A stretch of 39,500 nucleotides of DNA from Phycisphaeraceae bacterium (GTDB lineage Bacteria; Planctomycetota; Phycisphaerae; Phycisphaerales; Zrk34): NCBI GenBank assembly GCA_028282685.1, contig JANQHK010000136.1, positions 1-39,500 of the forward strand. The letters run 5' to 3'. The first letter of the stretch is position 1. Every line of letters starts with the position of its first letter. The notes under the pieces are model-generated. The model was not told the DNA's origin and searched no databases. It saw nothing but the letters and a program-made list of their open reading frames with translations. This document shows positions 4,981 through 34,161 of this stretch, piece by piece. The translations under genes and the position numbers were made by a program.

Positions 4981-5202
4981 TCAACCAGAGGCCGCCCAGT
5001 CATCCGGCCTGTAACCAGAAAGATAGGCCCGCATCAAACGAATGTATCGGGGTGGGGGTGTTCGGGCTGTGCTCGCGCTGGCGGGTGCCTCGAAAGCACG
5101 CTGTGACCTTGGGTCGGTGTCCATGAGACGCGCCATCTCAACAAGCGTCAGGCCCAACGTGTGCCGGGCCTGCTTGATCTTTTGGGGAGATATATTAGGC
5201 AT
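4981..5202 (-). CDS. HTH DNA-binding protein upstream of terminase
   Basis: 73 residues. The N-terminal half reads as an XRE-type helix-turn-helix (SPQKIKQARHTLGLTLVEMA then RLMDTDPRSQRAFE), and the end is helical (YIRLMRAYLSGYRPDDW). This resembles small phage regulators that pair an XRE fold with a short C-terminal helix. It starts at ATG 5202, overlapping the preceding gene by 8 bases, and is the last gene before the TerS leader. It could regulate packaging genes or help TerS bind DNA. The helix spacing after the first two helices is irregular, so DNA binding is likely but not certain. Confidence 0.72.
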   Translation of the reverse strand: MPNISPQKIKQARHTLGLTLVEMARLMDTDPRSQRAFEAPASASTARTPPPRYIRLMRAYLSGYRPDDWAASG

Positions 5203-5377
5203 CTAACCAGTCGTCATCATTCTCCCATATGCGTTGAAATTCCTCGGCGGTCGGGGCTTTGGCGGCGATGCGCTCGATCTCGGTGCGGGTGATGTTGTAG
5301 GCATAAAGCTGCTCGACGGCGCGCACGAAACCGCTCGATCCGATCTGATACGTTTCGTATATTTCAGCCAAGGTCAT
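5195..5377 (-). CDS. Small hypothetical protein, first gene of the packaging operon
   Basis: 60 residues, starting MTLAEIYETY at ATG 5377. An AAAGGGAAG ribosome-binding site lies 6 bases upstream, and a good promoter lies just beyond it (5412-5440). The longer in-frame start near 5440 would overlap the promoter and is rejected. The protein is helical and acidic at the end (RIWENDDDWLDA). It is the first cistron of the operon leading into the HTH gene and terminase. Function unknown. Confidence 0.75.
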   Translation of the reverse strand: MTLAEIYETYQIGSSGFVRAVEQLYAYNITRTEIERIAAKAPTAEEFQRIWENDDDWLDA

Positions 5378-5411
5378 CGGTTCTTCCCTTTGTTTCCTGT
5401 TTGATGATTTC

Positions 5412-5440
5412 AATATAGGGGCATATGCGCCTATTGTCAA
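5412..5440 (-). promoter_or_regulatory. Sigma70-like promoter with embedded operator, packaging operon
   Basis: On the minus strand: -35 TTGACA (5435-5440), a 17-base spacer, -10 TATATT (5412-5417). The spacer and -10 region contain a near-perfect palindrome at 5415-5434 (ATAGGCGCATATGCCCCTAT as read on the minus strand, one mismatched pair). The predicted start of transcription lies about 25-30 bases before the ATG at 5377. It would drive the terminase and head genes. Confidence 0.82.
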
Positions 5441-5455
5441 TGGCTTTCGTGAAAA

Positions 5456-5481
5456 CCCCGGCTGAATTTCTTCAACCGGGG
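5456..5481 (-). terminator. Rho-independent terminator after the VWA gene
   Basis: CCCCGGTTGAA pairs with TTCAGCCGGGG (one G-U pair) around a 4-base loop. It is followed on the minus strand by TTTTC (5451-5455). It lies 44 bases after the stop of the VWA-domain gene and just before the promoter at 5412-5440, so it separates the two minus-strand transcription units. Confidence 0.82.
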
Positions 5482-5524
5482 CTGCTGAATTGTTCCCACA
5501 CAGTCTACTACATTGGCACCCCCG

Positions 5525-6106
5525 TCACTTAGCGGCCTCGCGATCCTCGTCGGACCATGCCACCTTGTTGTCGCCGGTCTTGGCGTAGTTCGTGGCCCGC
5601 ATAGCCATAGCCGTCATCGTGGCGCCGATATTGTCCTTGCTGGTGTTCATGGTTTGGGCTCTCGCGATACCCAAACTGCCGGCCTCGTCAAATGCGTCAA
5701 AATCAGCGCCAATAAACACAACGTCATAGCCGCTCGATTTCCATTGCTCGATCAGACCGCGTGCGCTGTCCCTGGTCATCTCGCGTGAGGCATTTTCCTT
5801 GCCATCGGTCAGTATGCAGATCGACACCCGCTTGCCCTTGACCAGTCCGCCGAGCTTGCCAATCGCATCAAGAAGTGGCGTCATCGAGCGCGGTGTGATC
5901 TCGTCAGGATAGATCGTAGACCAATCCTTGGCCTTCACGCCGTCGCGCACGACATCAAAGCTCTGGCTGTCAAAGCTTGCGATGGTGATCTTCGCCTTGG
6001 GCTCGCTTTCGGCGAGCTTTTCGGCATAGGCATTGAGTGCGCCGATAGTTTCAACCCAATGAGTTGCCATGGACCCGGAACGGTCCAGCAGAATGAATGA
6101 TTTCAT
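5525..6106 (-). CDS. VWA-domain protein with intact MIDAS site
   Basis: 193 residues, starting at ATG 6106 with AAGGAG about 9 bases upstream. The whole protein is one von Willebrand factor A fold. The metal-ion-dependent adhesion site is complete: D8-R-S10-G-S12, Thr near 76 (SMTPLLDAI) and D101 (CILTDGKEN). There is no signal peptide or membrane segment, so it should be cytoplasmic. VWA domains bind partner proteins through a divalent metal, and in bacteria they often work with AAA ATPases, but no such partner is visible here. It is the last gene of the 8.3-5.5 kb unit. Its role in a phage cycle is unknown. Confidence 0.9.
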   Translation of the reverse strand: MKSFILLDRSGSMATHWVETIGALNAYAEKLAESEPKAKITIASFDSQSFDVVRDGVKAKDWSTIYPDEITPRSMTPLLDAIGKLGGLVKGKRVSICILTDGKENASREMTRDSARGLIEQWKSSGYDVVFIGADFDAFDEAGSLGIARAQTMNTSKDNIGATMTAMAMRATNYAKTGDNKVAWSDEDREAAK

Positions 6107-6123
6107 TTTCAGTTTCTCCTTTT

Positions 6124-6288
6124 TCAGTTGCGGTCAGTTTCGTTTTCAAGTGCATCACGCATTTCTTCATAGCTCGGCAAGATCGTTGACCACCCGCGCC
6201 GATTAAATTCCTCGAAAGCAAGTTGTGCACAGTCGCAGGCGTGAATATCTATCCAATCAGTGGAGTGGATTTTGGGATGTTTTGGCAT
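6124..6288 (-). CDS. Small hypothetical protein
   Basis: 54 residues beginning MPKHPKIHST. The start codon shares one base with the stop of the gene before it (TGATG), which supports translation by coupling. The sequence is acidic at its end (SYEEMRDALENETDRN) and includes a CDC motif in the first half. It lies between the Tat-like protein and the VWA protein, so all three are likely co-expressed. Function unknown. Confidence 0.72.
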   Translation of the reverse strand: MPKHPKIHSTDWIDIHACDCAQLAFEEFNRRGWSTILPSYEEMRDALENETDRN

Positions 6289-6698
6289 CATAACCCTTTC
6301 TTGAACTGGTGGATCAAATTATGGATTGCCTCTTGTTGCTGATACCGGCGCCATTGTCTTTCAAGATCGCGATCAATCATGCCCTGCTTGTGGACGCCTG
6401 AAACCGATCTCAGCGCTTCCACGCGGGCAATGGCGTGCCTACCAGTCACCGCTTCCTGGCGAAGGTTCTCAACCGCTCGCTCGGAAATCTCCGCATCCGT
6501 CGCCTTACCGGAAGCGCGCCGCCGCAGCCATTCGATATGATCGAAGGGTATATCCACTTCCGGCACTGGTTGAACCGCGCCATATAGGTCAGTCGAAAAC
6601 TCACCGGAAAAGCTGGTGATACCCTGCCGCGCAATCGAAGGCGCGGAGGTGACAGCACCAGCGGCGGCCTTGAAAAGATTGCGTCTATTCAACCCCAT
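6288..6698 (-). CDS. Protein with Tat-like N-terminus
   Basis: 136 residues starting MGLNRRNLFKAAAGAV. The N-terminus has the layout of a twin-arginine export signal: R5-R6, then NLFK, a short Ala/Gly-rich stretch and then polar sequence. The hydrophobic stretch is short, so export is plausible rather than certain. The rest is charged and helical (ERAVENLRQEAVTGRHAIAR) with no enzyme motif. A promoter lies about 150 bases upstream (6852-6880). The gene ends in a TGATG overlap with the next small gene. Possible roles are a periplasmic or membrane-associated phage protein, or a virion protein whose N-terminus only resembles a signal. Confidence 0.8.
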   Translation of the reverse strand: MGLNRRNLFKAAAGAVTSAPSIARQGITSFSGEFSTDLYGAVQPVPEVDIPFDHIEWLRRRASGKATDAEISERAVENLRQEAVTGRHAIARVEALRSVSGVHKQGMIDRDLERQWRRYQQQEAIHNLIHQFKKGL

Positions 6699-6851
6699 AG
6701 CTCAACTCATTGTGATCACGCGTGCAACTGCCAACAGGGTGCCATTGCCCACCGCTCGCAACGCGAACGCCTCTCGATGGAGAACCTCCATGAGAAACAG
6801 GCTCCAATAGAAACTGACGATCCGGCAAACCTCATTCCCTTTGATGACTGC

Positions 6852-6880
6852 ATCATAGCCTATTATAGGCTATTGGTCAA
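6852..6880 (-). promoter_or_regulatory. Sigma70-like promoter with perfect 19-bp operator palindrome
   Basis: On the minus strand: -35 TTGACC (6875-6880), 17-base spacer, -10 TATGAT (6852-6857). Inside lies a perfect palindrome at 6855-6873, ATAGCCTAT and ATAGGCTAT around one central base. It would transcribe the Tat-like, small and VWA genes. The roughly 150-base leader from here to 6698 holds only short, doubtful reading frames. Confidence 0.82.
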
Positions 6881-7103
6881 CAAGAGGGCGCTTCATCTGC
6901 ACGACGTTATCGGGTGCAGGCTTGGCCTTGCGTGGCGTGGGCTTCGGCTTGTGTTCGCCACACCAATCCTTCGAAAGCGTCCTCACAAAGCTGTCGGCGG
7001 TATGATGGTTCATCGCCCGGCTTGGAGGAAAACGACGGCACTGACCGTTCATCCCATCCGTGAGCTTCCAGAAAGCGCATGTTTTGCAACTCTTACCCTT
7101 CAT
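6870..7103 (-). CDS. Small Cys-motif protein (CKTCAFW)
   Basis: 77 residues from ATG 7103, chosen over an upstream in-frame ATG because AAAAGG lies at the right distance. It begins MKGKSCKTCAFW and has further cysteines (GQCRRFPPS and DWCGEH), giving a C-x2-C ... C ... C pattern that could bind zinc. The C-terminus is basic and Pro-rich. I recognise this as a type of small Cys-rich protein frequent in rhizobial phages. Function unknown. Its 3' end overlaps the promoter at 6852-6880. Confidence 0.75.
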   Translation of the reverse strand: MKGKSCKTCAFWKLTDGMNGQCRRFPPSRAMNHHTADSFVRTLSKDWCGEHKPKPTPRKAKPAPDNVVQMKRPLVDQ

Positions 7104-7186
7104 TGCCTTTTCCCCGATTTTCCCATTATCCCCGATTTCCACAGACTAATAATAGTAACCTTGTTTTCTGTATCTGTTATCTTGGC

Positions 7187-7201
7187 ACGTTTCAGAAACG
7201 T
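7187..7201. other. 15-bp perfect palindrome
   Basis: ACGTTTC and GAAACGT around one central base, between the stop of the gene at 7206 and the start at 7103. It could be an operator or a small transcript hairpin. No promoter of good quality was seen beside it. Confidence 0.55.
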
Positions 7202-7205
7202 TTCA

Positions 7206-7556
7206 TCAGCGCTTCAAGGCCGTAAACCTTTGTTTTTCCCTGAATTTCCGAACGCGATCACTGCTAAGGTCGCTTTTGAACTGCAATTCATCCCACGCCA
7301 GAGGGTGACCATTCGCATCGGTTAGGCCGACTTCCTCCAAGCGCCGGAAAACCTCCTCAAGCTCGCGCACTTGGAGGCCCATTTTCACGGCGACCTTGCG
7401 GCTTTTCCAGTTTTCATCGGATTGGTCGAGCAGGCCGGACGCCTTCAAGCAGCACAGGGCAATAAAATGCCACCGGTCCTCGAATGCCAGAACGCGCAGT
7501 TTTTCATCATCAATGATGCGATGGTAAAGCCGAAACCATGGCGGGCTATTCGGCAT
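7206..7556 (-). CDS. Replication-initiator-type winged-helix protein (probable)
   Basis: 116 residues from ATG 7556, beginning MPNSPPWFRLYHRI; the start overlaps the preceding gene by 11 bases. The pattern WFRLYHRIIDDEKLRVL, then WHFIALCCLKASGL, then VAVKMGLQVRELEEVFRRLEEVGL reads as the winged helix found at the N-terminus of phage replication proteins (lambda O or DnaD-like). The C-terminus (SSDRVRKFREKQR) is the short basic tail these proteins carry before a variable domain that is missing here. It is the only replication-type gene I can find, so it may mark the origin or load host replication factors. Moderate confidence in function. Confidence 0.72.
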   Translation of the reverse strand: MPNSPPWFRLYHRIIDDEKLRVLAFEDRWHFIALCCLKASGLLDQSDENWKSRKVAVKMGLQVRELEEVFRRLEEVGLTDANGHPLAWDELQFKSDLSSDRVRKFREKQRFTALKR

Positions 7557-7905
7557 TGCGTTTTTTCCTGCGCCGCTTCCTGACCAGATCGGGCGGGTCA
7601 AAGCGCTCGCTGTAGAAAGCGCACGATCCAGCTTGCGGCGGAACTCGCCGCGCCGCCTTATTCATGATCGGATAATGGCATTTCGCGGGCTCCAGGGCCA
7701 TCATTCCCATACCGTCGTCGGCATAATCAAAACCACGCCATTCCCCGGCCTGTGTTTTATTGCCCCAATGAACACATTGACGACAGGTTGTGTTTTCCGG
7801 CCCCGTGCCGGCGAAATGCGCCTGCCCAAGGTACGTGCCCCTTGCAGCCTCCAACGTCTCCGGCATGGTGTGGTGGTCGCTGCCGCCGTCAAATTTTTTG
7901 GTCAT
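7546..7905 (-). CDS. Hypothetical Cys-containing protein
   Basis: 119 residues starting MTKKFDGGSD at ATG 7905, in an ATGA overlap with the stop of the preceding gene. Cysteines occur as CRQCVHWG in the centre, then KCHYPIMN and SCAFYS, a possible zinc site. The C-terminus is strongly basic (VRKRRRKKRN). This layout resembles small regulatory-region proteins of alphaproteobacterial phages. The basic tail suggests nucleic acid binding, which is inference. Confidence 0.75.
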   Translation of the reverse strand: MTKKFDGGSDHHTMPETLEAARGTYLGQAHFAGTGPENTTCRQCVHWGNKTQAGEWRGFDYADDGMGMMALEPAKCHYPIMNKAARRVPPQAGSCAFYSERFDPPDLVRKRRRKKRNAE

Positions 7906-8114
7906 CTGACACCCTCATACGGTATGGGCAGATGGTGGACGATGCACCTGCCGAGCGTCACAAGCCTGAGCGCGCGCGCCTCACTAGTTTCCAATGCCCG
8001 CGCTATATCTCGCGTCGAAAACCAATAGAGATCGAACAACTTATAAGCGGCTAGACAGTCTGATACAGGCTCGCCGGCAACCGCGCTCATGTCCTGCGGT
8101 GGGCTCCCGCCCAT
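7902..8114 (-). CDS. Small HTH-like protein
   Basis: 70 residues if the start is ATG 8114; ATG 8090 (62 residues) is also possible, as neither has a strong ribosome-binding site. The segment STRDIARALETSEARALRLV looks like a helix-turn-helix. The gene lies between the Cro-like regulator and the Cys-containing gene, with an ATGA overlap at its 3' end, so it is translated. It may be a second small regulator of the immunity region. Confidence 0.65.
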   Translation of the reverse strand: MGGSPPQDMSAVAGEPVSDCLAAYKLFDLYWFSTRDIARALETSEARALRLVTLGRCIVHHLPIPYEGVR

Positions 8115-8121
8115 CTGGCCG

Positions 8122-8325
8122 CTATTCGCGCTCAGCGGGCTTCTTTTCGCGCGCTTCGCTCCTGTAGGCATCCATAGCCGTTTTGAGACGCGTCTTTGTT
8201 GCTGGGTAGGGCATACGGCCCTTACGCACCTCAAACACGAACATGGGATCACTCATGAAGCGCCGGCCGAAATCAGTCGGGTTCATGTTCTGCTCAGTCA
8301 GGAATTTTTCGATTTCTTTCAGCAT
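8122..8325 (-). CDS. Cro-like transcriptional regulator
   Basis: 67 residues. The sequence LKEIEKFLTEQNMNPTDFGR, then MFVFEVRKGRMPYPATKTRLKTAM, is a known small alphaproteobacterial phage repressor type in which a short helix-turn-helix is followed by a charged tail. It is the first gene read leftward from a divergent promoter region (8341-8383) that contains the ATAGCCTAT element, so it probably controls its own transcription and the opposing early operon. As the nearest regulator it is the best candidate to bind the shared operator found at three other promoter regions. Binding is inference. Confidence 0.78.
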   Translation of the reverse strand: MLKEIEKFLTEQNMNPTDFGRRFMSDPMFVFEVRKGRMPYPATKTRLKTAMDAYRSEAREKKPAERE

Positions 8326-8340
8326 ATCGGTTTTCCACGC

Positions 8341-8383
8341 TTGCCCTGTGTGAGTAAATAGCCTATCAGTGGGAATTGTTCAA
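8341..8383. promoter_or_regulatory. Divergent overlapping promoters with shared operator half-site
   Basis: Leftward: -35 TTGAAC (8378-8383), 17-base spacer, -10 TATTTA (8355-8360). Rightward: -35 TTGCCC (8341-8346), 17-base spacer, -10 TATCAG (8364-8369), a weaker match. The element ATAGCCTAT (8358-8366) lies over both -10 regions, so one bound protein could block both. This is the typical plan of an early/immunity switch. Confidence 0.72.
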
Positions 8384-8401
8384 CATCGAAAGGAAACCAT
8401 C

Positions 8402-8806
8402 ATGAACATGCCGAAAGAGTTTGTTGAGGCGCTGGCCCACGCTGCTCAGCAGGAGCAGGAAATTCCCTCGCTTTCGAGGATGCAACGCGAGGCCGCTATC
8501 ATGGATATGCGGCAAATCCTCAACGACTACAAGGATGGGTGCCGCTTCAACGTCGGCGACCTGATCACGCCAGCCCAAGGGGCATTCATCAAGTGGGCTG
8601 GTGAACCGCACTTGGTTATCGAGGTGCTCGAAACCCCTGTGCGCATGTTCGATCTTGTCGAGGAGATGGGGGACGTCGCCGACCCGAACTTTGGTGCGCG
8701 CTATGACATGCGTGTGCTTTCGCCTGTGGTGAGGCCGAATGACGGATTGATGGGCATCCGCGCCTATATGGCGGAAAGCTGGCTTTACAAGCCCTATGAG
8801 GGTTAA
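8402..8806 (+). CDS. Early hypothetical protein
   Basis: 134 residues from ATG 8402, with AAAGGAAA well placed upstream. It is the first gene of the plus-strand early operon. The N-terminal third is helical and charged (EFVEALAHAAQQEQEIPSL), followed by a beta-rich part (FNVGDLITPAQGAFIKWAGE). There is no catalytic motif. I do not recognise a named function. The rightward promoter at 8341-8369 lies about 30 bases upstream. Confidence 0.78.
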   Translation: MNMPKEFVEALAHAAQQEQEIPSLSRMQREAAIMDMRQILNDYKDGCRFNVGDLITPAQGAFIKWAGEPHLVIEVLETPVRMFDLVEEMGDVADPNFGARYDMRVLSPVVRPNDGLMGIRAYMAESWLYKPYEG

Positions 8807-8845
8807 TGCCGTGCAACCGGGTTTGGCACCGTAAAAGGAAGTCCA

Positions 8846-9178
8846 ATGAGCATTGATGACATGAAAATCGGAGAGGCCAAGGCTATTGCGGCCATGTTTG
8901 GCGGCGCAGCCGACGCGACGGCACCGTGGAATATTGGGGCAAACTATTTGATCCGCACGGTCACCATGATTGACACAGGCCGGCTGGTCGCCGTTACGGC
9001 AACTGAACTGGTTGTCGAAGATGCCGCATGGATCGCCGACACCGGGCGTTTTTCGGATGCCCTCAAATCTGTCGAATTTAGCGAGGTTGAGCCGTTCCCC
9101 GATGGGCGTGTGATTATTGGGCGCGGATCGGTGATTGACGCCATCGAAATCTCCAAACTGCCCCGGAGCAAGAAATGA
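8846..9178 (+). CDS. Early hypothetical protein
   Basis: 110 residues from ATG 8846 with AAAAGGAAG upstream. The sequence is beta-rich with repeated Val/Ile/Thr strands (YLIRTVTMIDTGRLVAVTAT) and ends in a short basic tail. It is a type I have seen in early operons of rhizobial phages, without assigned function. The stop overlaps a following ATG (ATGA at 9175), so a small downstream peptide is coupled to it. Confidence 0.78.
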   Translation: MSIDDMKIGEAKAIAAMFGGAADATAPWNIGANYLIRTVTMIDTGRLVAVTATELVVEDAAWIADTGRFSDALKSVEFSEVEPFPDGRVIIGRGSVIDAIEISKLPRSKK

Positions 9179-9276
9179 ACGCGGTGTTATTACGGCGTGG
9201 CTATGACCGGTCACGGTCGGGGTCACGGTTGGGGTCGTGGTCGTGGTCGGGGTCACGGTCACGGTCGTGGTCGTGA
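9175..9276 (+). CDS. Ser/Arg-rich 33-residue peptide over a hexamer repeat
   Basis: The frame begins MNAVLLRRGYDRSRSGSR and continues with Ser, Trp, Gly and Arg. Its ATG overlaps the upstream stop (ATGA) and its TGA overlaps a downstream GTG (GTGA at 9273). This double coupling argues that the frame is translated. The second half is encoded by a GGTC-based six-base repeat. The peptide itself may have no function, and the repeat could instead be the remains of a longer reading frame. Confidence 0.5.
   Translation: MNAVLLRRGYDRSRSGSRLGSWSWSGSRSRSWS
9208..9276. repeat. Six-base tandem repeat tract (GGTCNN)
   Basis: About eleven imperfect copies of GGTCAC, GGTCGG, GGTCGT or GGTTGG in a row. The tract is low complexity on both strands and all six frames are open for part of it. 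Changes in copy number would keep the frame. Confidence 0.85.
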
Positions 9277-9473
9277 GGCATTTTCAAAATCAGAAGGGTG
9301 TTACCGTCAGCCTCGATGCGCTGAGCACCATCGCTGTTTGCGTGCAGTATTATGGTGCGCGCATGAATGCGCGTGGGGCCGATATAATCGGTGATCGCTG
9401 CGCGGAAATTTACCGCGAGGCCCGTGAAATCCTGATCAAAGAGGGTGTTTGGCCAGATGAACGGCGAATGTGA
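9273..9473 (+). CDS. Small early hypothetical protein
   Basis: 66 residues from GTG 9273, the start that overlaps the stop of the Ser/Arg peptide. The later part (IYREAREILIKEGVWPDERR) is helical and charged. A longer reading into the repeat from 9237 would add only low-complexity Val and Thr. The next gene begins inside its 3' end (ATG 9457). Function unknown. Confidence 0.65.
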   Translation: MRHFQNQKGVTVSLDALSTIAVCVQYYGARMNARGADIIGDRCAEIYREAREILIKEGVWPDERRM

Positions 9474-9690
9474 AACCACAATTCGCGGTGGCCTGCCGAT
9501 CACGGTTGCCTATGTGATGGAGGCGCCGCAACCCGACGTTGGTTTTGATGCTCCATGGGTCGATGATTTCGACATCGTGTGCGTTGGTCGCAACGATGGC
9601 CGCTGGCTGATGGATCAACTGACGGCCGATGAAATCCGTCAGATCGAAGCGGCTTGTTTGGAGGATTTCGAGACATGGAGATGCCCATGA
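9457..9690 (+). CDS. Small early hypothetical protein
   Basis: 77 residues, beginning MNGECETTIRGG. It overlaps the upstream gene by 17 bases and the downstream gene by an ATGA. The sequence is acidic, with a Trp/Asp-rich centre (APWVDDFDIVCVG) and a helical end (TADEIRQIEAACLEDFE). Function unknown. Confidence 0.72.
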   Translation: MNGECETTIRGGLPITVAYVMEAPQPDVGFDAPWVDDFDIVCVGRNDGRWLMDQLTADEIRQIEAACLEDFETWRCP

Positions 9691-9953
9691 ATTTTCGCGT
9701 TAGGGGACATTCGGCGAAGTTCGTTCAGAACATGACCGCTCTCAATGAAGCCATTAACGATGCCGAAACAGCCGTCATTCAAAGCAACCCCAGCGAGCAA
9801 AATTATGCCCATCTCGGCGGCGATGCGATGGCGGATGCGCTCGCCGAGGACGCCGAAAAATATAAGATGGCAATTCAGGCGCTCTATATCCTTCGCGAGT
9901 TTACCCGCGCCTACACCTTGACCGTGAGAGGTCAAGTCGATGCCTCAGAATAA
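9687..9953 (+). CDS. Small early hypothetical helical protein
   Basis: 88 residues from ATG 9687 (MNFRVRGHSA), the start in an ATGA overlap with the upstream stop and with GGAG six bases before it. ATG 9675 is a possible alternative. The protein is mostly helical (MTALNEAINDAETAV; DALAEDAEKYKMAIQAL). No catalytic motif. Its end overlaps the next gene by 14 bases. Confidence 0.72.
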   Translation: MNFRVRGHSAKFVQNMTALNEAINDAETAVIQSNPSEQNYAHLGGDAMADALAEDAEKYKMAIQALYILREFTRAYTLTVRGQVDASE

Positions 9954-10161
9954 GCGGCTCCGAACCCTGCAAAAACTGGCCCGGCGCTATAGCCGGTGCT
10001 TTGAGATTGGCGTGACCGGCAGCGGCCATTATCGGGTCACGCTTTACGGCCCCGCCGGCAAGCGAAGCGTGATCGTATCCGCAACACCATCCGATCAGGG
10101 TGCCAAAAGGCAAGTCGAAAAAGATTTGAAAAAAGCAGCCATCGAGCTTGAATTGAGATAG
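9940..10161 (+). CDS. Small basic protein, HicA-like fold suspected
   Basis: 73 residues starting MPQNKRLRTLQKLARR. The core GVTGSGHYRVTLYGPAGKR, then VIVSATPSD, then a helix resembles the short beta-beta-beta-alpha layout of HicA or YcfA-like RNA-binding proteins, with a His after SG as in HicA toxins. No HicB-like antitoxin gene follows. It may bind RNA as an early regulator. The assignment rests on pattern only and is weak. Confidence 0.6.
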   Translation: MPQNKRLRTLQKLARRYSRCFEIGVTGSGHYRVTLYGPAGKRSVIVSATPSDQGAKRQVEKDLKKAAIELELR

Positions 10162-10176
10162 CCTATTTGCTATGGC
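10148..10176 (+). promoter_or_regulatory. Internal promoter with operator element, before Gp157/RecT
   Basis: -35 TTGAAT (10148-10153), 17-base spacer, -10 TATGGC (10171-10176). ATAGCCTAT lies in the spacer at 10158-10166. The position just before the recombination genes suggests a second start for them under the same regulator. The -10 match is modest. Confidence 0.62.
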
Positions 10177-10199: not shown

Positions 10200-10706
10200 A
10201 TGAGTGTGGAGCGCAAAGTCGCGATTGAAAAAGAGAGCGCGACTGATCTTCTGAAATCCCTTTCCGACGAACTTGGTTGTGATGCTGATTTGATGGCGGC
10301 CACAATCGAGGGGGAAACGGGTCTTTTCGAGGCCATTGGCCGCGCGGTTGACGAGATCGATCAGATCGAAGTTCTGATTGTCGGGCTCAAGGCCAAGGAA
10401 AAAGCATTCATCGACCGCCGCCGGCGCTTGGAGGCGAAGAAAGATCGTATTCGGGCGCAGATCGAGCAGGCGATGGACGCGACCGAACAAAAGGCCGTCA
10501 CACTGCCTACGGCGACGCTTTCGCTGCGTGAGGTCAAGCCCGGCTTGATTGTGAGCGAGGAGGCCGACATTCCGGCCCGGTTCTGGAAAGCGCAGCCGCC
10601 CAAACTGGATAAGACCGCCCTGCTGGCCGAACTCAAGGCCGGAGAACAGGTGCCCGGCGCGGGTCTTGACAATGGCGGCTTTGCGGTTGCGATCAGGAGG
10701 GCGTGA
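10200..10706 (+). CDS. Gp157-like protein
   Basis: 168 residues from ATG 10200, with AAAAGGAAG upstream. The pattern matches the Siphovirus Gp157 family: a long helical N-terminus with a charged coiled coil (KAKEKAFIDRRRRLEAKKDRIRAQIEQAMD is its core, quoted in part: LEAKKDRIRAQIEQAM), then LPTATLSLREVKPGL, and a C-terminal LDNGGFAVAIRR. In many phages this gene lies directly before a single-strand annealing or recombination protein, as here. Its biochemical role is not settled. The stop overlaps the RecT start (TGATG), after a strong AGGAGG. Confidence 0.88.
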   Translation: MSVERKVAIEKESATDLLKSLSDELGCDADLMAATIEGETGLFEAIGRAVDEIDQIEVLIVGLKAKEKAFIDRRRRLEAKKDRIRAQIEQAMDATEQKAVTLPTATLSLREVKPGLIVSEEADIPARFWKAQPPKLDKTALLAELKAGEQVPGAGLDNGGFAVAIRRA

Positions 10707-11668
10707 TGAACAAGGTCGCTCAGTTTCAGCCGCGCCAGATGCAATTGATCCGCGAGACAGTCGCGGCCGATTGCACTGCCGCCGAGTTCGATTTGTATAT
10801 GGCGGCGGCGCAGTCCTATGGCCTCGATCCGTTTCGCCGGCAGATCATTCCACTCGTCTTCAACAAGACAGATCAGCGGAAACGTCGCATGGCGCTTGTC
10901 GTCGCCCGCGATGGCCTACGGGTGATTGCATCGCGTTGCGGCGATTACCGTCCGGCCAGTGAGCCGGCGGAGATCGGCTATGACGAAAAACTCGTGTCCG
11001 ACAACAACCCGAAAGGCATTGTTTCGGCCACGGTGCTCCTGTGGAAACAGGACAACAAGGGCGACTGGTATCCCGTCATCGGGATCGCTCATTGGGACGA
11101 GTTTGCTCCGCTGACATTTACGCCAGACGCCTATGAATATGTCGACAGGGGTGAGGTTTGGGCCGACAGCGGCAAGCCGAAGAAAGCCCGCGTTTTGAAA
11201 AAGGATGTGGTTAAGACGCTGGATCGTGACGGCAATTGGGGCAGAATGCCGGTCCTGATGATCACCAAGTGCGCCGAGGCGCAGGCGTTGCGGGCCGGCT
11301 GGCCCGACCAATTTGGAGGTCTCTACGCCGAGGAGGAAATGGATCAAGCCGTGGCGGAAGACATGACTGCTTCGGAAGTGGTTGCCGCCGAGGAGGAGGC
11401 CTATCGGCTCCGGCTGGTCGAGGGCGACAATGCGCTTCTGGTGCAATGGGATTTGGAGCAGCCCCTTGTGCCGGTGAAAGTTGGGGCGTTCTTTGATGAC
11501 GTCGACGCTTGGACGCGCGCGCTTGAGCCCGAGGAGGTCAAGGGCTGGATGGTCCGCAACCGCGAGACCTTGAAACAGTATTGGGCGCGCGCGGCCGGCG
11601 ATGCGCTTGAATTGAAAAAAGTGCTTGAGGAACGGATTGCCGGTGCGCCAGATCATAACGGAAAATGA
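10706..11668 (+). CDS. recT: Single-strand DNA annealing protein, RecT/Bet family
   Basis: 320 residues from ATG 10706, preceded by AGGAGG. The N-terminal two thirds carry the RecT/Bet pattern: AEFDLYMAAAQSYGLDPFRRQI, a core region around RMALVVARDGLRVIA, and MPVLMITKCAEAQALRAGWP. These proteins pair complementary single strands and drive phage recombination. The C-terminal third (about 220-320) is acidic and more variable, as is usual. I see no RecE, lambda Exo or YqaJ-type exonuclease beside it, which is unusual. The gene overlaps the next by about 26 bases. Confidence 0.9.
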   Translation: MNKVAQFQPRQMQLIRETVAADCTAAEFDLYMAAAQSYGLDPFRRQIIPLVFNKTDQRKRRMALVVARDGLRVIASRCGDYRPASEPAEIGYDEKLVSDNNPKGIVSATVLLWKQDNKGDWYPVIGIAHWDEFAPLTFTPDAYEYVDRGEVWADSGKPKKARVLKKDVVKTLDRDGNWGRMPVLMITKCAEAQALRAGWPDQFGGLYAEEEMDQAVAEDMTASEVVAAEEEAYRLRLVEGDNALLVQWDLEQPLVPVKVGAFFDDVDAWTRALEPEEVKGWMVRNRETLKQYWARAAGDALELKKVLEERIAGAPDHNGK

Positions 11669-30301: not shown

Positions 30302-30985
30302 TCATTGCGCGTGTCGCGCCAACTCAATCAATTCGTCGCGAAAGGCGATTGGCGTCGCCGCGGCTTCAATCGGGCAAAGCGTCGGCTTATTCGCGGCCTT
30401 GCCGCGTTGATCCTGGAACCCAACTTGATGCGTCCCGACCGGGCGATCCCATATCATCGATCGAGGCAACGCCTTGCCCGCGTAGAATAGCCATGTGGCC
30501 TTATTCGCGCGGTGCCCATACGCCGACTGCCAAACCTCACAAACCCACCCGTTCTCGGTCCGCGTCCAGCCGCCAGCGACCGGCCTATCGATCCCATGTG
30601 CCGCCCAAGCGCGCGTTGCCTTGGGGTGCTCAAGCACTCCACCGAACGTGAGAACGGCTTGCAGCGCAGCGGCGAAGCATCCACCGTCATTGCCCGGTCG
30701 GTTGTGCTCGCCGCCCCATCGCGCGTAATTGACTGCCGCCATCGCGCCCCAACGCTGGCAGGGCGGGTGCGCCACGACAGGCCACGGACCATCGTACAGT
30801 CGTGCATCGCGGCTTTCGTCCCACGGGTCAACGCCGTCGAGGCCGAAGTAACAGCCATCTGTTTGGACGTAGAGCGCGGCAATAGGGCTTGCTTCCGCAG
30901 CGGCGATTTCGCGCTGCTGTTCGTGATAGTCCTGCTGGCGCATGGCTTCGAAATATGCTTCCTCGCTCATGCCGTGGATGCCCAT
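30302..30985 (-). CDS. HPPC-motif protein of phages, methyltransferase-like
   Basis: 227 residues from ATG 30985 (TGATG overlap, AAGGGAT upstream). The centre carries YVQTDGCYFGLDGVDPWDES, then VVAHPPCQRWG, then GGCFAAALQAVLTFGGVLEH, and WLFYAGKALP. I know this family as a widespread phage protein without proven function. HPPC resembles the catalytic Pro-Cys of cytosine-5 methyltransferases, and GGVLEHP fits a following motif, but no clear S-adenosylmethionine site is visible. It lies between a recombinase and a methyltransferase. Confidence 0.78.
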   Translation of the reverse strand: MGIHGMSEEAYFEAMRQQDYHEQQREIAAAEASPIAALYVQTDGCYFGLDGVDPWDESRDARLYDGPWPVVAHPPCQRWGAMAAVNYARWGGEHNRPGNDGGCFAAALQAVLTFGGVLEHPKATRAWAAHGIDRPVAGGWTRTENGWVCEVWQSAYGHRANKATWLFYAGKALPRSMIWDRPVGTHQVGFQDQRGKAANKPTLCPIEAAATPIAFRDELIELARHAQ

Positions 30986-31605
30986 CACTCAATCCCTTCG
31001 AAGCCATCTTTGCGCCAGCGCCGATACGTCTCATGACTGGCAATCGGCTTTGCGTCTGGGTCCGCTGCGTTCAGGATTTCCAGCGCTTCACGCGGCACCA
31101 TGGTCAGTGCCGATCCGTCATCGACGTGAGGCCGAAACGCATCAAGGCGAAGCTGATTGTCCTTGATACTGTGCGGCTGCCCGAACCGGACGCCCTGCGC
31201 GCGCCGAATAGCAATGCCGGCCTTGGTCCGCTCCGATATCAGGTCGCGCTCAAGTTCTGCAAAAATCAGGCCCATGCGAAAGAACGCCTTTCCCATAGCG
31301 CTTTCGGTGTCGATTTTTTCAGTCAGACTCACAAAATGAACGCCTTCCTTTTCCATCTGTTCGACGGCCTCGATGACCCCGGTCAACGTGCGCCCCAACC
31401 GATCCAACTTCCAGACAACAATCGTATCTTGCGGGCGCCGCATCTTGATAACACGCTTCCAGCCTGGCCGATCCATCTTGGAGCCCGATCCGGTTTCCTC
31501 GATGATGCGATCACAACCATATTTCTCAAGGGCTGCGATCTGCATGGCCATGTCCTGATCATCGGTCGAAACGCGCGCGTAGCCGATTTTCCAAATCTCT
31601 GACAT
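30985..31605 (-). CDS. Small serine recombinase (resolvase/invertase family)
   Basis: 206 residues from ATG 31605. The catalytic domain has YARVSTDDQD with the nucleophile Ser13, then VVWKLDRLGRTLTGVIE, then FFRMGLIFAELERDLISERT with the E helix. The C-terminal part (from about 148) is where resolvases carry a helix-turn-helix; here the sequence ALEILNAADPDAKPIASHET, then YRRWRKDGF may be a related DNA-binding domain. It could invert DNA, resolve multimers or integrate the phage. No tyrosine integrase is present. It is the first gene of its unit. Confidence 0.9.
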   Translation of the reverse strand: MSEIWKIGYARVSTDDQDMAMQIAALEKYGCDRIIEETGSGSKMDRPGWKRVIKMRRPQDTIVVWKLDRLGRTLTGVIEAVEQMEKEGVHFVSLTEKIDTESAMGKAFFRMGLIFAELERDLISERTKAGIAIRRAQGVRFGQPHSIKDNQLRLDAFRPHVDDGSALTMVPREALEILNAADPDAKPIASHETYRRWRKDGFEGIE

Positions 31606-31669
31606 GTTTTCGACATACAGCACGCGCGATTACATTGCAATGCTTGTGTGACTTTTTGTGGAATGCATG

Positions 31670-31698
31670 TTGACGGCATTAAAGTGAAATGCTATATG
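31670..31698 (+). promoter_or_regulatory. Strong sigma70-like promoter of the accessory operon
   Basis: -35 TTGACG (31670-31675), 17-base spacer, -10 TATATG (31693-31698). The spacer begins GCATT and ends AATGC, an inverted repeat, and CATTGCAATG occurs as a palindrome at 31633-31642. These could be operators of a regulator different from that of the early promoters. The promoter faces away from the serine recombinase gene. Confidence 0.78.
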
Positions 31699-31731
31699 AC
31701 AGTCAACGAACAATCCGAAAGGGACAAGACG

Positions 31732-31926
31732 ATGAACCGGAAATGCCATGACTGCCACGCACAAGAAGACGACTTCACGATGCTGGCGCTTGCCGATGAC
31801 AACAGCGGCGACTTGATTTGCCAGGATTGCAACAGCGCGCGTGAGCGCGAGTACATCGCCCAGAACCCCGGCGCCCTGCATTCTCTTGACACGCTTTGCC
31901 CGGCCGCTGGCGGGCGTGATTGGTAG
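31732..31926 (+). CDS. Small zinc-finger-like protein
   Basis: 64 residues from ATG 31732 with GAAAGGGACA upstream. It has CHDCHAQEDD and ICQDCNSARE, two C-x2-C pairs likely to bind zinc. It is the first gene of the accessory operon. Function unknown. Confidence 0.72.
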   Translation: MNRKCHDCHAQEDDFTMLALADDNSGDLICQDCNSAREREYIAQNPGALHSLDTLCPAAGGRDW

Positions 31927-31959
31927 CACCTGAAAGGACAACAAGGGAAGGACAAACCG

Positions 31960-32223
31960 GTGGACGAGCGCCCCGCGACAAATCAGGAAATCATCCATCA
32001 CTTTCGCGCGCATCGCCGCGTGAGCTTTGATCATTGGGCTCGCGAGTGCCTCGACCGCCGCACCGAACACGGTGTCCGTCACAAGACACGCGGCAATTCC
32101 ACGTTGCGTGTTCGCGATGGCGTGCCCATGGTCCGCCACCTTGGCGAGGACTACCCGTTGAAAGCTACGCACTACACGCTGCCGTCGGGTCGGACGTTCG
32201 TCGCCAGCGCAACGATCATCTGA
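31960..32223 (+). CDS. Small hypothetical protein
   Basis: 87 residues from GTG 31960, with AGGGAAGGACA upstream. It contains NQEIIHHFRAHRRVSFDHWA, then VRHLGEDYPLKATHYTLPSG. A winged-helix-like reading is possible but uncertain. It belongs to the small-gene operon. Function unknown. Confidence 0.68.
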   Translation: MDERPATNQEIIHHFRAHRRVSFDHWARECLDRRTEHGVRHKTRGNSTLRVRDGVPMVRHLGEDYPLKATHYTLPSGRTFVASATII

Positions 32224-32236
32224 AAGGGACATTGAG

Positions 32237-32422
32237 ATGCCAAGACCAACTCAAGACGAATGCCGCCGCCGATATGTGGTTGCGCTTGATAAGTTCGCTC
32301 GTGAGCTTCGGCTGATTGATGACGAAACGCCGGCGTCGCCGACAATGGAGCCTGAATGGTGGCGCAATCTGATGGCGGATATTCGCCATGCCGACAAACG
32401 CCTTAAAGCACTTCAATTCTGA
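32237..32422 (+). CDS. Small hypothetical helical protein
   Basis: 61 residues from ATG 32237, with GAAAGGGACA upstream. Mostly helical (DECRRRYVVALDKFARELRL; WWRNLMADIRHADKRLKAL). No motif recognised. Confidence 0.68.
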   Translation: MPRPTQDECRRRYVVALDKFARELRLIDDETPASPTMEPEWWRNLMADIRHADKRLKALQF

Positions 32423-32433
32423 GGGACAAACCG

Positions 32434-32634
32434 ATGACACGCTCTGAACTGATCGCAGAAGTCGCCGAATATCTCGCTGGCAAGGTTTTGGCCAACCTTG
32501 ACCGCAACAGCCTTGCGGAGAGTTTGGTGGAGGAAGGCCGCATCAACGGTGATGCAATTTCATTCGAGGTGCCGGCCCGCTACACCATTCTCAACGATCC
32601 CATCGCGTGCGAATTTGACGCGCCGACCGACTGA
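32434..32634 (+). CDS. Small hypothetical acidic protein
   Basis: 66 residues from ATG 32434, with GAGGGACA upstream. It begins TRSELIAEVAEYLAGKVLAN and ends in an acidic stretch (IACEFDAPTD). No motif recognised. Confidence 0.68.
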   Translation: MTRSELIAEVAEYLAGKVLANLDRNSLAESLVEEGRINGDAISFEVPARYTILNDPIACEFDAPTD

Positions 32635-32659
32635 CGCTTCAACATAGAGGGACAAGACG

Positions 32660-32899
32660 ATGAGGATCACAGAAAACCAGCGTGCCGCCTTAACGGCGAT
32701 GGCCATTTCCCCCAAAGGGCTCGGGTCGGCATACAGTCTCAAAGTGAAAACCGGACGGCGAATTTCAGTGAGCACGATGTTCGGCCTTTCACGCCGTGGG
32801 CTGATCCGGCCAACGCGCGATTTGGGCGGCTTGGCATTTCCGCAGAACCACAATTACCAGATTACCGACGCCGGTCGCGCCGCGTTGAAAAACATTTGA
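32660..32899 (+). CDS. Small winged-helix-like protein
   Basis: 79 residues from ATG 32660, with GAGGGACA upstream. The pattern MRITENQRAALTAMAI, RRISVSTMFGLSRRGLIRPT, then YQITDAGRAALKN is that of a compact winged helix like MarR-type or phage antitermination helpers. It may bind DNA. Family not certain. Confidence 0.7.
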   Translation: MRITENQRAALTAMAISPKGLGSAYSLKVKTGRRISVSTMFGLSRRGLIRPTRDLGGLAFPQNHNYQITDAGRAALKNI

Positions 32900-32913
32900 A
32901 AGGGACAATTGGA

Positions 32914-33348
32914 ATGCAAATTTATCTTGCCTCGCGCTACTCACGAGCTTCACAGATGCGCGATTGCCGAACCGATCTCGAAAACATGGGGCACAACATC
33001 ACGTCTCGATGGATCGACGGCGGTCACGAGTTGACAAAGGAAGGATCAACGGAAGCTGCGCAGCGTGAGCGAACGCGTTTTGCCCAAGAGGATTGGGCCG
33101 ACATGGAAGCGGCCGATACCATCATTTCATTCACGGAAGAACCGCGAAAAACAAACACACGCGGTGGTCGTCATGTCGAATTTGGCGGCGCCCTCGCGCT
33201 AGGCAAACTGTGCATCGTCATCGGCTGGCGCGAGAACGTTTTTCATTGCCTGCCACAGGTGCGCTTTTTCGAAACATGGGAAGCATGCCGGCGCAACATG
33301 CAGAAGGCCGCAGATGAACGCGCCTTTATGACAGCGCACAACGGTTAA
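32914..33348 (+). CDS. Nucleoside 2-deoxyribosyltransferase-like protein
   Basis: 144 residues from ATG 32914, with GAAAGGGACA upstream; a start in frame at 32896 lacks a site. The pattern MQIYLASRYSRASQMRDCRT, then DWADMEAADTIISFTEEP, then GGRHVEFGGALALGKLCIVIG is that of nucleoside 2-deoxyribosyltransferase-like proteins, with the Asp and Glu (HVEFG) expected in the site. These enzymes transfer or remove bases from deoxynucleosides, so a role in nucleotide change or defence is possible. Activity is inference. Confidence 0.8.
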   Translation: MQIYLASRYSRASQMRDCRTDLENMGHNITSRWIDGGHELTKEGSTEAAQRERTRFAQEDWADMEAADTIISFTEEPRKTNTRGGRHVEFGGALALGKLCIVIGWRENVFHCLPQVRFFETWEACRRNMQKAADERAFMTAHNG

Positions 33349-33364
33349 CCGAAAGGGATAAAAC

Positions 33365-33667
33365 ATGGGCGAGATCACCGCGAAAGAGATCAGAAAGATC
33401 GACGGATGGACGGCAGACGCTCGTTTGTTCAAGCTTTCCGAGCCCGTGCCCTACGGCTGGGATTGGGATGAAGAAAACACCAAGGGGCTGACGGATTACG
33501 TCATCATTTCCGCCGCCCTTGTGCCATTCAGCGGCGCCGAGACGTACATTTTCCCGGCCAAGAAAGACGGTACGGCTATTGAGATGCTTGAAATGCCCGG
33601 CAGCTTTCAGGGCGGTTTGGATCACGCGGCAGCCATAGCAGGTGCCGGCTGGGCGCTGGCCGCATAG
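33365..33667 (+). CDS. Small hypothetical protein
   Basis: 100 residues from ATG 33365, with GAAAGGGATA upstream. It includes KLSEPVPYGWDWDEENTKGL, YVIISAALVPFSGAETYIFP, and GSFQGGLDHAAAIAGAGWAL. I recognise similar small proteins in other phage accessory operons, without function. Confidence 0.7.
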   Translation: MGEITAKEIRKIDGWTADARLFKLSEPVPYGWDWDEENTKGLTDYVIISAALVPFSGAETYIFPAKKDGTAIEMLEMPGSFQGGLDHAAAIAGAGWALAA

Positions 33668-33687
33668 CCACCAAGAAAGGGACACCG

Positions 33688-33900
33688 ATGTCGATCATTG
33701 TCGCGCCTGCGGGCAACGCATATGTTGGCCGCGAGGTCGAAAAAATCATCTTGCAACACGGTTACGGATTGGATCGGGATGCCCTGAAGCGCGTCAACAT
33801 CCAAACACCGGCCGGCGTCATGGATCACAGCTTCCGATGGCTGGTTGAACGCGATTACTGTGCTCGACGGCGACAGCACGATCGCGCGACGATCATCTGA
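33688..33900 (+). CDS. Small hypothetical protein
   Basis: 70 residues from ATG 33688, with GAAAGGGACA upstream. It includes AYVGREVEKIILQHGYGLDR and a basic C-terminus (RDYCARRRQHDRATII). Function unknown. Confidence 0.68.
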   Translation: MSIIVAPAGNAYVGREVEKIILQHGYGLDRDALKRVNIQTPAGVMDHSFRWLVERDYCARRRQHDRATII

Positions 33901-33912
33901 AAGGGACGCAGC

Positions 33913-34161
33913 ATGAAGAAGCCGCCCAAAATCCAAGCGCTTGAAACTGCCATCGAATGGCTTGAAGTCAACGAGGGCGAGGACGGCGAGGCAGATGATT
34001 GTCAGAGCGTCGCCGATTGGCTGCGCCATGTCTCGGCAGCGGCGCTGAAAGACGCCGCGAAACGGGCCGCCGAAAAAGAATTGGCAGCGAAACACGGTAT
34101 CTCCGTTGCCCATCTCAAACGCATTCTGACCGGCCGCAATCCACGGCCTTCAAATTGGTAA
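33913..34161 (+). CDS. Small HTH-like protein, last gene of the accessory operon
   Basis: 82 residues from ATG 33913, with GAAAGGGACG upstream. A helical N-terminus (KIQALETAIEWLEVNEGEDG), then basic helices (ALKDAAKRAAEKELAAKHGI) and SVAHLKRILTGRNPRP, which resembles a helix-turn-helix. It may regulate the operon. Similar short proteins occur in rhizobial phages. Confidence 0.7.
   Translation: MKKPPKIQALETAIEWLEVNEGEDGEADDCQSVADWLRHVSAAALKDAAKRAAEKELAAKHGISVAHLKRILTGRNPRPSNW

Follow-up and report, generated by a model that had tools for sequence, protein, structure and literature searches.

The contig JANQHK010000136.1 (assembly GCA_028282685.1, Phycisphaeraceae bacterium), analyzed here over its whole length of 39,500 bases and referred to as the window, has a 99-bp direct terminal repeat at its ends and is therefore probably a complete, circular phage genome. 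It carries four palindromic sites placed within promoter regions (A, 5412-5440; B, 6852-6880; C, 8341-8385; D, 10148-10176) and genes for two small candidate regulators, a Cro-like protein and an XRE-like helix-turn-helix (HTH) protein, and the assignment of these sites to the two proteins is the subject of this work. The leftward genes run from the Cro-like gene (8122-8325) through small open reading frames (ORFs) and a VWA-like gene (5525-6106) to the HTH gene (4981-5202) and the terminase, and the rightward genes from 8402 onward to Gp157 and RecT. The Cro-like gene is divergent from the gene at 8402-8806(+), as in a lambda-type arrangement.

A first-pass annotation of this DNA had proposed that all four regions hold -35/-10 pairs with 17-bp spacers enclosing ATAGSCTAT or a close palindrome, and that one phage protein, likely the Cro-like product, controls the early, accessory and packaging operons through them. 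The promoter-like pairs were present in every case. Those at 5412-5440 and 6852-6880 were close to the consensus, but the pairs at 8341-8369(+), 8355-8383(-) and 10148-10176(+) were weak. The coordinates of all the features are collected in Table 1.

Table 1. Predicted genes, promoters and candidate operators in the window.
Feature	Position	Strand	Basis
XRE-like HTH protein, phrog_14076 (transcriptional regulator); likely autoregulator of promoter A, predicted	4981-5202	-	PHROGs E 1e-14; homologues with operator upstream
Small ORF, first after promoter A	5195-5380	-	ORF; no family match
Promoter A, TTGACA-17-TATATT, preceding 5195-5380 and the HTH gene 4981-5202, with terminase further on	5412-5440	-	11/12 consensus match; predicted
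HTH-class candidate operator TAGGGGCATATGCGCCTA nested in promoter A	5416-5433		Rank 1/78,967 with other-phage matrix
Promoter B, TTGACC-17-TATGAT, upstream of 6288-6698, 6124-6291 and 5525-6106	6852-6880	-	10/12 consensus match
Palindrome ATAGCCTATTATAGGCTAT, 19 bp and perfect, holding ATAGSCTAT twice at a distance of 10 bp	6855-6873		Sequence
Small Cro-like protein, 67 residues	8122-8325	-	Homologues in genomes and viral contigs; AlphaFold2 model with four helices, predicted local distance difference test (pLDDT) 72
Region C, separating the Cro-like gene from the divergent rightward genes	8341-8383		Weak promoter-like pairs on both strands; not picked by promoter scan
ATAGCCTAT copy overlapping both possible -10 elements	8358-8366	+	Exact word match
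Cro-family-like site AGTGGGAATTGTTCAACA	8368-8385		Rank 6/39,483, Cro-homologue matrix
First rightward gene of the divergent pair	8402-8806	+	ORF; no confident family
AGCAGGAAATTCCCTCGC, possibly another Cro-family site, within the first rightward gene	8454-8471		Rank 1/39,483, Cro-homologue matrix
Promoter-like pair D (weak), TTGAAT-17-TATGGC, ahead of Gp157 and RecT	10148-10176	+	Sequence; not picked by promoter scan
16-bp site D, ATAGC-CTATTT-GCTAT, containing ATAGCCTAT; Cro-family 5-N6-5 geometry	10158-10173		Ranks 10 and 13/39,483, two overlapping registers
Genes downstream of site D: Gp157-like (Pfam Sipho_Gp157, phrog_253) and RecT	10200-11668	+	Family matches

Recurrence of ATAGSCTAT in three promoter regions

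The exact word ATAGSCTAT was found four times in the window, at 6855, 6865, 8358 and 10158, whereas 0.04 copies were expected from dinucleotide shuffles, 0.015 under a first-order Markov null and 0.042 when scaled from 946 kb of terminase-related phage loci, a set with almost nothing of the early region in common with this phage that served as background only. Among the odd 9-bp palindrome families of the window, ATAG-S-CTAT ranked first in significance (Poisson P 2.5e-5, uncorrected for about 500 families). All the copies are intergenic or sit at the edge of a gene in a contig of which only about 5% is non-coding according to a hand-made gene map; ATAG includes a stop codon, and some avoidance of coding DNA is expected regardless. 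The word was picked after the fact among many possible words; nevertheless, with four copies so placed against about 0.04 expected in shuffles and in natural phage DNA alike, a chance recurrence is highly improbable.

Hence, the proposed sharing of the palindrome was upheld for three regions (6855-6873 with two copies, 8358 and 10158), and the perfect 19-bp palindrome described at 6855-6873 was confirmed. At 5412-5440, by contrast, no ATAGSCTAT was detected even with one mismatch allowed; the palindrome there, TAGGCGCATATGCCCCTA, is imperfect, spans 20 bp and has only the outer ATAGG/CCTAT in common with the 9-mer. A hairpin or terminator at 6855-6873 was considered and rejected, as no T-run follows on either strand.

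The assembly-wide motif search suggested as a check gave no further copy of ATAGSCTAT in the rest of the 2.94-Mb assembly. This result favors the operator proposal weakly, and little weight was placed on it because the similarly built TTAGSCTAA was absent too and the assembly may not be that of the host. With regard to the host, the phage may be mis-binned, its annotated relatives infecting Alphaproteobacteria; among genomes bearing the same order label, the contigs matched by Cro homologues have Phycisphaerae or Planctomycetota in their titles, and the guanine-plus-cytosine content of the contig is 0.58, compared with 0.61-0.63 in most sampled contigs of the assembly.

The 9-mer could also belong to the promoter, reflecting a preference of the polymerase for an extended -10, and be no operator at all. 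In B and C its right half overlaps the -10 element, and promoters of other phages likewise have SCTAT at the start of their -10; nevertheless, in B and D the copies within the spacer lie clear of any -10, and the absence of the word elsewhere in the assembly, with the reservation made above, also argues against this explanation, which we consider decidedly unlikely. The enrichment, together with the homologous loci described below, supports reading the sites as putative repressor-type operators inside promoters. Exact ATAGSCTATNATAGSCTAT in viral contigs was rejected as evidence, since none of the eight loci had a homologue of either protein; the L091 and L094 copies were discarded for lying inside a reading frame.

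Site A and the operators of HTH homologues

The search of viral contigs for homologues of the HTH protein yielded 50 related loci. Upstream of these homologues, an initial scan with loose criteria for palindromes nested in promoters gave a weak signal (13 of 43 loci, 8 expected). A stricter scan of all the loci gathered to that point found 35 nested palindromes, compared with 16 expected, and its matches included closely similar palindromes at the HTH loci Pkon1, L127, L143, L159 and L166 together with the window sites A and B. The operator class was drawn from this stricter scan and a pattern search, several patterns and scans having been tried ahead of those reported, and was then tested by leave-one-out and with reduced matrices.

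Palindromic TAGS-N9/10-SCTA was observed seven times in 269 kb of HTH loci and twelve times in 1.22 Mb of other loci, all twelve in contigs fetched with the ATAGSCTAT pattern. In the leave-one-out analysis, an operator scoring at least 14 was present in 14 of 42 HTH loci and was upstream of the HTH gene in all 14, a count that depends on a cut-off chosen by the analyst and is not fully independent, some of the 42 loci being related; the 946 kb of terminase-related loci gave five weaker matches. Each homologue phage matching the class pattern has a single site of this kind. Additionally, the promoters of the class in L122, L143, L147, L157, L159 and L166 were seen to have in common GGGCAA or GCGCAA about 20 nucleotides after the -10, in the would-be transcript leader.

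When the window was scanned with a half-site matrix built from eight operators of other phages, site A was placed first of 78,967 positions with a score of 21.5, the runner-up reaching 11.9 and the maximum in 50 simulated sequences 16.2. Site A was still first after removal of the two closest homologues from the matrix (16.3 vs 11.4), and again with a matrix of only the four operators found without the TAG pattern, for which 0.02 such matches were expected. With the Cro-homologue matrix, its rank was 2044 of 39,483. The closest parallel is the p72-p71 operon of Paracoccus phage Pkon1 (MK291442.1), in which a phrog_14076-type HTH gene also follows a small ORF and a 17-bp palindrome occupies the promoter spacer (TTGACA-AC-TAGCGCCATTGGCGCTA-AATC); compared by sequence alone, the two palindromes differ in their gap, N9 in Pkon1 and N10 in site A.

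Several results weigh against this assignment. The inner positions alone placed site A at 126-252 of 78,967, within the top 0.4% and not unique. Four of the eight operators came from a search with TAGS...SCTA, a pattern prompted by sites A and B, and the outer letters are therefore partly circular; in addition, 28 of the 42 HTH loci had no such operator. The assignment draws on the outer and inner letters together with the place of the site before the HTH operon, and site A is most likely the operator of the phrog_14076 HTH protein.

Candidate sites of the Cro-like family

The Cro-like protein gave no Pfam or PHROG match. Fold searches with its model provided nothing usable (Foldseek without a match at E 0.001; VIA-align with one row, Z 2.0), and the AlphaFold models were of low confidence (pLDDT 72 and 64). 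Few relatives were retrieved by a single-sequence search and several by an order-wide search, and a six-sequence alignment led to 17 loci in genomes and viral contigs. After leaving out two duplicates (L119, L120), two members of a different subtype (L112, L114) and one locus with no site (L117), 12 were scanned.

Within 150 bp upstream of the Cro-homologue gene, 18 perfect TNGG-N6-CCNA sites were found in 11 of the 12 loci, where mononucleotide shuffles gave 0.33 per set, a count that is descriptive because the pattern was picked by eye on the same sequences; in the twelfth locus, L105, the best match was a 5/6 site, which is frequent by chance. Both loci of the other subtype show a TTGG-N6-CCAA palindrome. 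In a leave-one-locus-out matrix scan, the best site of the whole locus was no more than 130 bp upstream of the gene in 9 of 12. Furthermore, homologues of both proteins occur together in the sister contig IMGVR_UViG_3300007734_000641, where a Cro-type site fills a promoter spacer. Extra operator-like copies were noticed 0.9-2.2 kb from the gene in L115, L118 and L121, as left and right operators around a repressor gene would be.

In the window, sites C and D had been named beforehand, and both were among the top matches of the Cro-homologue matrix, which was counted in their favor. The 16-bp N6 sites of C(+) and D(+), read from the sequence, take an equal place relative to the -35 and -10, and D is the sole TAGS-N6-SCTA in the window. 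The Cro matrix nevertheless gave 13 window positions of at least 5.5, compared with 7.5 expected in simulated sequences, and the C and D matches are therefore not significant alone. Also to be set against them, the matrix prefers, within region C, the sequence beside ATAGCCTAT; ATAGSCTAT was absent from five searched records with Cro homologues; and in L099 the homologue gene is likewise divergent from a repressor-like gene, whose product could read the operator there, alone or as well. The site at 8454 is possibly a chance match, four positions reaching 9.4 where 1.5 were expected. Taken together, these data give moderate, suggestive support for the 8340-8385 region and 10158 as Cro-family sites.

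Site B, the best palindrome, fits neither matrix (rank 409 with the Cro-homologue matrix and 606 with the HTH-class matrix), which counts against the two-system explanation given below, as does the difference in half-site gap between B (N9) and D (N6). It was put in one set with C and D because of the exact 9-mer, and the Cro-like protein is the leading, as yet unproven, candidate regulator for 6855, 8358 and 10158. The HTH protein could instead read both A and B, leaving only C and D to the Cro-like protein. In its favor, B is TAGC-N9-GCTA and equals the Pkon1, L143 and L166 operators in length and promoter register. Its core, however, is off the class (rank 606, and 6329 with the pattern-free matrix), and one such site per phage is what the matching homologue phages have, which makes this alternative rather unlikely. 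C and D also score outside the HTH class, with ranks of 1246 and 38.

Two predicted systems of phage repressor operators

The explanation that we favor, with a probability of about 0.55, is that the four sites are phage repressor operators between -35 and -10 and form two systems. The HTH protein, once made, would cover the spacer and the -10 of promoter A through 5416-5433, turning down its own operon and any read-through toward the terminase, that is, as an autoregulator. For the second set (6855-6873, 8358 and 10158), the most likely binder would be the small Cro-like protein, with repression of its own leftward promoter and of the rightward early and recombination genes as the expected effect. 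Binding, repression and, especially, the reading of site B by the Cro-like protein are predictions from sequence comparison.

Matrices from other phages picked site A strongly and C and D weakly, and in the promoters of those phages the -10 opens with SCTAT, which is the right palindrome half. The likeness of the two sets may come from a common overlap with this SCTAT, through which their palindromes mirror the same letters: if these promoters favor SCTAT at the -10, a palindrome covering it has ATAGS in its opposite half. This would explain why the first-pass annotation joined site A to the others. Its single regulator, with the Cro-like protein reading all four sites, is consistent with the outer ATAGS/SCTAT common to the four, with their location in promoters and with the TAGG half-sites of Cro homologues. 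We nevertheless consider it unlikely, as site A is far better explained by the HTH class than by the Cro matrix and the half-site gaps differ (N10 in A, N9 in B, N6 in D). Control of the early, accessory and packaging operons by the Cro-like product was not supported in the form proposed, and the packaging-side site is best explained as a phrog_14076 HTH operator.

Elsewhere in the contig, a serine recombinase of the DNA-invertase or resolvase type is encoded at 30985-31623, and divergent from it a second rightward block of small ORFs (31648-34161) is devoid of ATAGSCTAT. A simple repeat of GGTCACGG/GGTCGTGG units lies between small ORFs at 9200-9277. Searches of viral contigs with RecT and the 5525-6106 protein gave no confirmed relatives, and no close relative of the phage was found for the 5-10 kb region.

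As in the Cro systems of lambda-like and telomere phages, for instance PY54 OR3 (PMC4488713), a small Cro-like protein, a divergent gene pair and a palindromic candidate operator of about 16 bp near promoters are seen here; in contrast to them, no CI-type partner repressor was noticed among the part of the ORFs that was scanned, and candidate sites are also found at promoters 1.5-1.8 kb away on both sides. The presence of repressor sites at several places in one phage genome recalls the mycobacteriophage stoperators, which are asymmetric and numerous (PMC9283540), whereas the sites described here are few, palindromic and located at promoters, with four copies in three promoter regions.

Gene control of this kind is ordinary in phages; one of the operator types was not matched to any described one. 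More tentatively, and as a statement we lean against at present, phrog_14076 HTH operons in many phages would have an operator class (about TAGGGCCAATGGCCCTA, between -35 and -10) unmatched to a described one, which in this phage would stand beside a separate Cro-type circuit governing the early genes without a CI repressor. Phage operators outside the model systems are seldom assigned to proteins from sequence alone, and the cross-phage comparison gives one concrete predicted pairing of protein and site (4981-5202 with 5416-5433) and a second, candidate pairing, both with proteins of about 70 residues and testable with short oligonucleotides. Seemingly shared sites in a phage genome may have different regulators, their likeness arising from overlap with the same -10 letters.

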